NCBI GenBank assembly: GCA_903857495.1
Contig: CAIOFF010000042.1
Span: 1 to 64,000, forward strand
Reading direction: 5' to 3'
DNA: 64,000 nucleotides
Source of the DNA: an uncultured Holophagaceae bacterium
GTDB lineage: Bacteria; Acidobacteriota; Holophagae; Holophagales; Holophagaceae
Shown here: positions 51,840 to 53,373 of the stretch, piece after piece
Position numbering within the stretch: position 1 is the stretch's first letter
How the letters are laid out: the number at the start of each line of letters is the position of its first letter
The notes under the pieces: generated by a model
The model's database searches: none
The model's input: only the letters and a program-made list of their open reading frames with translations
What the model was told of the DNA's origin: nothing
Program-made: the position numbers and the translations under genes

Positions 51840-52418
51840 TCAGGACGGACGCAGTTCCAGGACCACCCGCCGGCCCCGGGTGGGGAGCTCGTAGGGATGC
51901 GGAGTGGCCGTCCAGCCTGCGGGCAGGACCTCCCGCTCCCAGTCCAGGGCCTTGAGCGCGAAGAAGGGCGCCCCGGGCCGACCATGACGAGCCCACCAGC
52001 CCAGCAGCTGCTCGAGGGAGCCGAGGGCCTTCGCCGTGCCCCAGTCCGCCTGGAGGGGAGGAAGTGCCTCCAGGCGTCCGTGCAGTGCTTTAAGGTTTGG
52101 CACGGGCAATTCCAGCGTGGCTTGCCGGAGGAAGGCCAGTTTCTTCGTTGAGGCGTCCACTCCGATCACTTCCAGGTCCGGCCGCGCCAGGGCCAGCAGG
52201 ACCGAGGGGATGCCCATCCCCGTACCCAGGTCCACCACCCGGCTACCGGGCCCAAGCAGGGCCAGAAAGGGCAGCAAGGCCGCGGCATCCAGCAGCAGTT
52301 CCTCTCTCCGTTCGGAGATGGGAAGGGCCGTCAGGGCATGGGTCCGGTTCCAGCGATCAAGCAAGGTCAGGAAGCGGCCGAGGGGGTCTGCCAGGTTTCG
52401 GGGGAGGCCGGGGTTCAT
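51840..52418 (-). CDS. rsmG: 16S rRNA m7G527 methyltransferase RsmG
   Basis: A 192-residue methyltransferase. SAM motif I is RVVDLGTGMGIPSVLLA with motif II VIGVDASTKKLAFL and RALPPL... region, the RsmG family pattern. N7-methylates G527 in 16S rRNA. The start at 52418 (MNPGLPRN) has GGTGG upstream and gives the expected length; the extension to 52472 is unlikely. Confidence 0.87.
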   Translation of the reverse strand: MNPGLPRNLADPLGRFLTLLDRWNRTHALTALPISERREELLLDAAALLPFLALLGPGSRVVDLGTGMGIPSVLLALARPDLEVIGVDASTKKLAFLRQATLELPVPNLKALHGRLEALPPLQADWGTAKALGSLEQLLGWWARHGRPGAPFFALKALDWEREVLPAGWTATPHPYELPTRGRRVVLELRPS

Positions 52419-52644
52419 GCCACCAGGATGCCAGAGGTTCCCACTATTTCTGCGAGAATATTCATTAGTCATTTATTGATAGTTTTTATCTTAAAATTTA
52501 ATAATAAATTCTATGCTAAATTTTCAAGTCTAGTGGCCTGAAAAACATTGATTCAATTCGTGCACCTATTAATCTGAGATTGACAGAAAGCCCAATAGCA
52601 AGCATCATTAGTCCCCTTTTATTGATTTTGTAATGGAGAAGGCC
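52419..52644. promoter_or_regulatory. AT-rich divergent region upstream of ybeY
   Basis: Over about 150 bases the sequence is much richer in A/T than the rest of the window. TTGACA (52580-52585) and CATCAT (52603-52608), 17 bases apart, form a plausible promoter for ybeY. ATTAGTCAT appears at 52464, as before the tautomerase-like gene. No small gene of its own was seen. Confidence 0.5.
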
Positions 52645-53373
52645 ATGACTGAGACATCAAAACCCTTCACGGTCGATTGGTCTAGCCGCAGCAAATTACG
52701 TGGTCCCGGTGAGCAGTCCCTCGGGAAACTCCTGCGTGGGCTCAGAGATCGACTGGCACCCGAAGCTCAGGGGATGTCGCTGACTTATGTAGATGATCGC
52801 GGCATGAGAAAACTCAACCGGGAACATCGCGGGAAAAACATGACGACGGATGTGCTCAGTTTCCCGTCGAGCGTGGAGAAGGGCGCCTTTCCGCACCTCG
52901 GCGACGTTGTCATCAGCCTCCCGACCGCGGAGAAGATGGCCAAGAAATTCGGTGTGAGCCGAAGGCGCGAGGTCGAGATGCTGGTGATCCATGCCTTCCT
53001 GCATCTCTGCGGCCAGGACCACGAGACGGATGGCGGCGAGATGATGGCACTGCAGGCCCAGCTCGAGCGGGAGCTCCTGGACGAGGAGCCGCTGGCCATG
53101 AGCCTCAAGCGCGGGCGGAAGCCCGGCAGCAAGGTGAAGAAGCTGAAGGATGGCAGCCGCGTCGTGGTGACCGGCCGTGCCGCGGCCGCCCTGGTCCGGC
53201 GGGAGCGGGTGAAGAAAGAGAAGCCGGTGAAGGTCCGCAAGGTCGCGAAGCCGAAGGACGAGATTCCCAAGCGGGGCCCGGGAAGGCCGCGGAAGGAGGC
53301 AGCACCCGTCGCCACCAAGCGCCCGGTCCGCCGCCGCCGAGTCGCGACCTCCCGCAGCGGCGTCCTGGGCTAG
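52645..53373 (+). CDS. ybeY: YbeY endoribonuclease with AT-hook-like C-terminal extension
   Basis: A 242-residue protein. Residues 1-155 are YbeY: the zinc motif H3xH5xH is HAFLHLCGQDH, with H116, H120 and H126. It matures 16S rRNA 3' ends. Residues 155-242 are a basic tail unlike standard YbeY: KRGRKPG at 155-161 and RGPGRPRKE around 210 resemble AT hooks, with VRRRRVATSRSG after. The ATG at 52645 has GGAG six bases upstream; the earlier ATG at 52633 overlaps that ribosome site. Confidence 0.87.
   Translation: MTETSKPFTVDWSSRSKLRGPGEQSLGKLLRGLRDRLAPEAQGMSLTYVDDRGMRKLNREHRGKNMTTDVLSFPSSVEKGAFPHLGDVVISLPTAEKMAKKFGVSRRREVEMLVIHAFLHLCGQDHETDGGEMMALQAQLERELLDEEPLAMSLKRGRKPGSKVKKLKDGSRVVVTGRAAAALVRRERVKKEKPVKVRKVAKPKDEIPKRGPGRPRKEAAPVATKRPVRRRRVATSRSGVLG

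Follow-up and report, generated by a model that had tools for sequence, protein, structure and literature searches.

YbeY is a widespread ribosome-maturation enzyme, and the Holophagaceae (the Geothrix family), from which the DNA analyzed here originates, are soil and sediment bacteria. According to the available portions of the respective papers, YbeZ binds YbeY in Pseudomonas and its loss impairs 16S processing (PMC7327168), and YbeY of E. coli contacts uS11, Era and YbeZ (PMC5101352). In the same portions the exact function of YbeZ is stated to be unknown (PMC7327168, PMC5101352). The way in which YbeY locates its rRNA substrate, and the contribution that YbeZ makes, are likewise open questions. 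The portions of the literature covered by our searches contained no description of a YbeY tail such as the one reported here; the C-terminal extension mentioned in the YbeY literature belongs, in the excerpt available, to uS11 and not to YbeY (PMC7515705).

Two further systems are relevant because of their sequence motifs. The AT-hook is defined, in the section of a review at hand, by a GRP core flanked by basic residues (PMC11354804). Its extended form, described for Tip5 and PTOV1, was reported to prefer RNA, and structured RNA (Filarsky 2015, as cited in parts of the reviews PMC11354804 and PMC4822317). In bacteria, excerpts on WhiB7 describe a C-terminal AT-hook whose site of action is an AT-rich motif lying upstream of the -35 box in the gene's own promoter (PMC3905903).

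The window YbeY and its C-terminal tail

In the window, by which we mean the whole 64-kb stretch of DNA analyzed, the ybeY gene was located at 52645..53373 on the forward strand. The ORF list begins the gene at its first in-frame ATG (52633, 246 aa), and a conserved SD sequence and ATG in 18 aligned sequences place the start at 52645; this is the likely start, so YbeY would be 242 aa long. Both family models were matched above their cut-offs, PF02130 with 98 bits (cut-off 25) and TIGR00043 with 100 bits (cut-off 45). The zinc-binding motif of the catalytic core, HAFLHLCGQDH (HxxxHxxxxxH), was found at 52990..53022 (+), and the predicted model of the core had the YbeY fold, with PDB matches to 7y7o, 1oz9 and 1xm5 at E values of 1e-11 to 1e-10. 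By every sequence and fold test that was run the protein is YbeY, and endoribonuclease activity and a role in 16S 3'-end maturation are predicted for it from its family.

The first-pass annotation had described this YbeY as unusually long after the zinc motif and had suggested comparing its length with that in related genomes, and the comparison bore this out. The window YbeY has 116 residues after the motif, of which 34 are K/R and 14 are D/E. In 64 YbeY proteins of the same family that were read, this part measured 115-148 residues, compared with 23-27 residues in 14 YbeY proteins from two other families of the class (f2 and f3) and 27 and 29 residues in two YbeY proteins of a reduced genus (g5). 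In the other Acidobacteriota loci read it was mostly 19-37 residues, and 55-75 residues in six f10 loci, three of which had been chosen for their long frames; 8 phylum loci and 1 family locus unmatched by the zinc-motif pattern are excluded from this comparison. The longer tails of the f10 proteins (L083, L086, L088 and L148-L150) were mostly Lys/Ala-rich, unlike the Holophagaceae tail. The limits given earlier for the tail also held, 53107 being the first K of KRGRKPG and 53371-53373 the stop codon. A frame or annotation artefact was rejected because, of 47 same-genus genomes, the 45 that gave a YbeY match all had the long ORF intact and closed (the other 2 gave no YbeY match).

The anatomy of the tail was determined from 64 sequences, 45 of the same genus and 19 of other genera. 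Block 1, MSLKRGRKPGSKVKKLKDGSRVVVTGRAAAALV (53098..53196, +), contains RGRKxGS in 64/64 tails and follows the family pattern LKRGRKPGSK..LKDG.RVVVTGRAA..LVR. Block 2, KRGPGRPRK (53269..53295, +), has a GRP core, resembles an extended AT-hook and reads GRP[RA]K in every tail. The two are separated by a variable Lys/Arg-rich linker (53197..53268, +) whose length differs among genera and whose dN/dS was 0.18-0.24. Block 3 (53317..53370, +), which consists of a basic patch and the C-terminus KRPVRRRRVATSRSGVLG, is less conserved; its family pattern is KR..RR.R..RSGVI, and the ending R(S/N/T)(G/P)(V/I)(I/L)x was present in 63/64 tails. A single hook is weak evidence in a sequence of this composition, because shuffling the residues after the zinc motif 20,000 times also produced a GRP with at least three basic residues within 4 in 1,039 cases. 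Such a GRP together with a loose RGRKPG-like pattern appeared in 72 of 20,000 shuffles. The motifs of the tail are considered real because RGRKxGS and GRP[RA]K are fixed in position in all 64 sequences.

Selection on the tail was found to be concentrated in the first two blocks. Mean column conservation over the 64 sequences was 0.885 in the core, 0.942 in block 1, 0.964 in block 2, 0.734 in block 3 and 0.54-0.66 in the linkers. When same-genus pairs were pooled by divergence into three bins, which held 15, 287 and 683 of the 990 pairs, dN/dS was 0.028-0.053 for the core, 0.018-0.047 for block 1, 0-0.035 for block 2, 0.18-0.34 for the linkers and 0.19-0.28 for block 3, indicating that purifying selection on blocks 1 and 2 is as strong as on the catalytic core. 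Synonymous constraint in block 1 was mild, with a codon diversity of 0.40 against 0.48 expected from core sites with the same residues (62 of 10,000 resamples were as low). The first-pass annotation had named a common filler with no conserved motif as the outcome that would speak against its reading; conservation and dN/dS rule filler out, blocks 1 and 2 being family-wide and under strong purifying selection.

AlphaFold predicted a beta-hairpin (53131-53142 and 53158-53169, +) and a helix (53176-53217, +) for block 1. The AlphaFold block means for this block were 63-70 in the full model (residues 161-190) and 73-86 when the tail was modelled alone (residues 11-40), and confidence was low over most of the tail outside it. 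As modelled, block 1 would be a small beta-hairpin with a helix and not a bare AT-hook.

Distribution of the tail and its relation to AT-hooks

By its nearest named matches, the genome from which the window comes is a Geothrix-like MAG of the Holophagaceae. A YbeY match was obtained in 83/93 genomes of the class, namely 68/77 in the window's family (f1), 8/9 in f2 and 7/7 in f3. A tail profile built from a 20-row alignment matched the ybeY locus in 66/68 of the f1 genomes with a YbeY match, that is, in 66/66 outside genus g5; the 66 include G434, in which the contig ends after 53 profile positions, and in G436 a second YbeY copy stops at the contig edge where the tail would start. The two f1 genomes with YbeY and no tail, G342 and G422, both belong to g5, whose genomes are 0.9-1.2 Mb in size. 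The profile gave no match in 16 f2 and f3 genomes, and YbeY of f3 was tail-less in 7/7. In a scan of 396 genomes of the phylum at E 0.001, in which no more than 12 candidates were scored for each genome, the tail was detected in 37 genomes, all of them Holophagaceae, and the two family genomes that were missed were both g5. Outside YbeY, the profile matched in the class a frame of G430 (E 0.04), which contains a stop, is not YbeY and was not counted, a piece of G027 at a contig edge, other stop-containing frames, and two weakly scoring sequences in G006 and G041 (E 0.02-0.1). Judged by these profile matches, the tail is fixed in Holophagaceae outside the reduced genus g5 and is attached to YbeY only. 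In an RpoB tree the rest of the family grouped together apart from g5 (support 77/84), a result that does not separate loss of the tail in g5 from branching of g5 before the tail arose.

Searches for related domains gave little. Pfam and NCBIfam had no match for the window's tail, and Pfam searches with 20 tails returned only scattered matches, to 7 families with a single tail in each, the best at E 0.0017. A PDB sequence search with the tail yielded two weak matches (E 0.8-0.9), and no fold in the PDB resembled it at thresholds of E 0.001 or Z 2. The profile found no second copy in the tail's own genome, where other matches had E values of 0.35 or worse, and no match in phage records or viral contigs. 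In view of these searches, which produced no convincing Pfam, NCBIfam, PDB, phage or viral match and no second genomic copy, the tail was rejected as a known domain or a separate mobile module.

The first-pass annotation had likened both KRGRKPG and RGPGRPRK to AT-hook cores, which proved right in part. In 64/64 tails block 2 carries GRP bordered by basic residues, and block 1 has RGR. However, block 1 reads RGRK and not RGRP, lacks GRP, and runs into the conserved predicted beta-hairpin and helix; in block 2 the first Arg is replaced by Pro, the residue preceding GRP being Pro in 64/64 tails, and this constant PGRP differs from RGR, the core inserted into the minor groove. The Pfam AT-hook model (PF02178) matched 0/20 tails at E up to 10, in a search that had no positive control and in which HMMER filters drop weak matches. 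Since the GRP block lacks the RGR core and this uncontrolled search gave no match, the protein was not classed as an AT-hook protein. The tail does have the arrangement of the extended AT-hook, in which basic patches lie at a distance of about 12 residues from a GRP: with a patch defined in this analysis as 3 K/R in 5, one was found downstream of GRP at a gap of 8-13 residues in 59/64 tails and upstream at a gap of 9-12 residues in 54/64. The composition and the motifs of the tail are consistent with binding to nucleic acid.

Possible roles of the tail

We infer that the likeliest function of the tail is that of an RNA-binding arm which keeps YbeY on pre-30S particles. The fuller proposal, to which we give roughly an even chance, is that it is a lineage-specific nucleic-acid-binding arm that holds YbeY on pre-16S rRNA or the nascent 30S and replaces the help of YbeZ. 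A disordered basic arm, made up of the GRP core and its flanking basic patches as in the extended AT-hook, would grip structured RNA. Together with the block 1 module it would anchor YbeY to precursor 16S rRNA or to the nascent 30S, near uS11 and Era, and the catalytic core would then cut or proofread the 16S 3' end without YbeZ.

Canonical YbeZ, taken as a PF02562 match at E 1e-60 or better, was detected in 0/39 Holophagaceae genomes and 0/2 f3 genomes, the best E value being 5.6e-52 or weaker in 39/39 family genomes and about 1e-48 in 2/2 f3 genomes. Matches at 1e-60 or better were present in 5/6 f2 genomes and in 331/349 of the remaining phylum genomes (10 had weaker matches and 8 had none); these counts were made by hand from the phylum table, with 7 candidates scored per genome. 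The same split was obtained when all PhoH candidates of 9 family, 2 f2 and 2 f3 genomes were scored, with none canonical in the family or in f3. The weaker PhoH protein consisted of PIN and PhoH domains, like PhoH2, in the 3 cases checked (the window's own genome, one g5 and one f3), and it fitted the PhoH2 model best in NCBIfam, yet below its cut-off. In two f2 genomes YbeZ was located ~3 kb from ybeY. Elsewhere in the phylum, an 8 Mb, 94% complete genome (G407, family f87) had no detectable YbeY, and its PhoH match was only of PhoH2 strength.

Compensation for the loss of YbeZ is the least certain step of the RNA-arm model. Family f3 combines a tail-less YbeY (7/7) with the absence of canonical YbeZ (3 genomes), and the reduced genus g5 does without both the tail and YbeZ. 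Basic tails can also arise without YbeZ loss, because six f10 genomes have longer basic YbeY tails although YbeZ is present in 6/6. In addition, block 1 is among the most strongly constrained parts of the protein, and the fold predicted for it resembles nothing known and might just as well serve to dock a protein.

Docking of block 1 on Era is the main rival to the RNA arm. In this reading, which we consider unlikely, block 1 and the conserved C-terminus would bind a ribosome-assembly partner, most probably Era, and the basic linkers would do no more than add affinity for the ribosome. It accords with the strong constraint on a block that is predicted to fold, and not on basic residues alone, and with the detection of Era in 7/7 tail-bearing genomes tested and its apparent absence from the 2/2 g5 genomes tested (G342 and G209). 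In the latter the best Era matches scored 79 and 76 bits against a cut-off of 116 and lay in 521-aa ORFs with two adjacent, Der-like GTPase matches; we infer from this that these ORFs are Der and that Era is missing, although the program tally puts both genomes above the cut-off because two matches in one frame are summed. The tail-less g5 YbeY proteins are those of G342 and G422, and the Era search in g5 covered G342 and G209, which are 1.2 Mb genomes; G209 gave no YbeY match, so that the combination of a tail-less YbeY with an apparent lack of Era is seen in G342 alone, and reduced genomes lose many genes together. Moreover, Era does not require the tail, because it was also present in tail-less f2 (3/3) and f3 (4/4). 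Docking is further favored by 7-8 extra, acidic-rich residues in the C-terminal (KH) region of Era, found in 7/7 of the family (L220-L226) and 0/7 of f2 and f3 (L216-L219 and L227-L229), but family-specific indels are common and this insertion may be simply one of them.

An unusual uS11 was rejected as the cause of the tail, since uS11 looks ordinary in Holophagaceae. Its C-terminus read alike in tail-bearing, g5 and f3 genomes (14/15 loci read), and one K/R difference was seen in one of two f2 genomes.

Quite unlikely, in our view, is a non-specific basic tail, a polycation that would raise affinity for any RNA or for the nucleoid and whose motifs would be kept only for their basicity. The excess of K/R over D/E after the zinc motif and the Lys/Ala-rich YbeY tails of other make in f10 agree with it, but it does not account for the fixed non-basic residues (VVTGRAA, the G and P of GRP, and the RSGVI-like end), nor for the drift of the first linker, which is just as basic as blocks 1 and 2, where dN/dS is close to zero.

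The region upstream of ybeY bears on a further reading. The divergent neighbor of ybeY in the ORF list (51840..52472, -) is presumably rsmG/gidB, encoding a 16S rRNA methyltransferase. Nowhere in the window is A/T content over 150 bp higher than between the two genes (52438..52587), where it reaches 72% against a mean of 32% and 65% in the next best segment elsewhere; the segment includes 20 bp made up of A and T only. In relatives, the point of highest AT content within the locus was upstream of ybeY in 32/32 loci and in 18/18 usable (of 19) other-genus loci, two sets that share one genome (L059 = L105). The corresponding counts were 0/2 in g5, 1/7 in f2, 3/7 in f3 and 4/24 usable (of 32) other loci. 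The loci compared contain few other intergenic regions. The AT-richness recurs among relatives more than its sequence does. A sigma-70-like promoter for ybeY, TTGACA-17-CATCAT (52580..52608, +), was recognized by its match to the consensus, and its TTGAC was invariant in 18/18 aligned upstream regions. Rfam matched no RNA element near ybeY.

On these grounds the protein could be a DNA-binding autoregulator that uses its hook-like motifs to contact the AT-rich segment in front of rsmG-ybeY and thereby adjusts transcription of both 16S rRNA maturation genes, with WhiB7 as the precedent (PMC3905903, in the part available). We regard this as still less probable than a non-specific tail. In GC-rich genomes a high AT content is usual for promoters, and a conserved promoter precedes ybeY here, so the stretch may be just a strong promoter, though it is compatible with DNA binding. 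Block 2 lacks the RGR core and had no Pfam AT-hook match (in the search lacking a positive control), YbeY is an RNA enzyme, and the rsmG-ybeY gap of g5 is only ~14 bp, as in compact genomes. Furthermore, the AT motif of WhiB7, as far as the excerpt describes it, touches the -35 box, whereas here the long A/T run ends ~70 bp upstream of -35. The least probable proposal, a long shot, is that after YbeZ loss the YbeY arm docks on pre-16S rRNA and Era and also binds the rsmG-ybeY AT tract, so that unoccupied YbeY would report on ribosome assembly and adjust both 16S maturation genes.

Comparison with known systems

A family with a conserved YbeY arm and no detectable canonical YbeZ is a natural experiment on the role of YbeZ. 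Removal of the arm, or its grafting onto YbeY of E. coli without ybeZ, would test whether that role is mainly RNA docking. In addition, the tail would provide an example from bacteria in which an RNA enzyme bears an extended-AT-hook-like motif.

Compared with YbeY as defined by PF02130 and TIGR00043, the window protein has the same catalytic core, zinc motif and fold, and differs in ~90 extra C-terminal residues with conserved blocks and in belonging to a family in which canonical YbeZ was not detected. With the extended AT-hook of Tip5 and PTOV1, as partly available, it shares the GRP core and basic patches about a dozen residues off; it differs in being bacterial, in sitting on an RNase and in having Pro before GRP, and a preference for RNA would follow by analogy. 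WhiB7 (PMC3905903, in part) is likewise bacterial, ends in a hook-like motif and has AT-rich DNA in front of the promoter of its own gene, but it is a transcription factor with the AT motif beside the -35 box, whereas here the protein is an RNase and the AT-rich region extends over ~130 bp. The basic C-terminal extension of uS11 and the human YBEY-p32-uS11m system, as excerpted (PMC7515705), resemble the present case in a basic disordered extension near the 16S 3' end and in YbeY as an assembly factor; in Holophagaceae the extension is on YbeY and uS11 looks ordinary.
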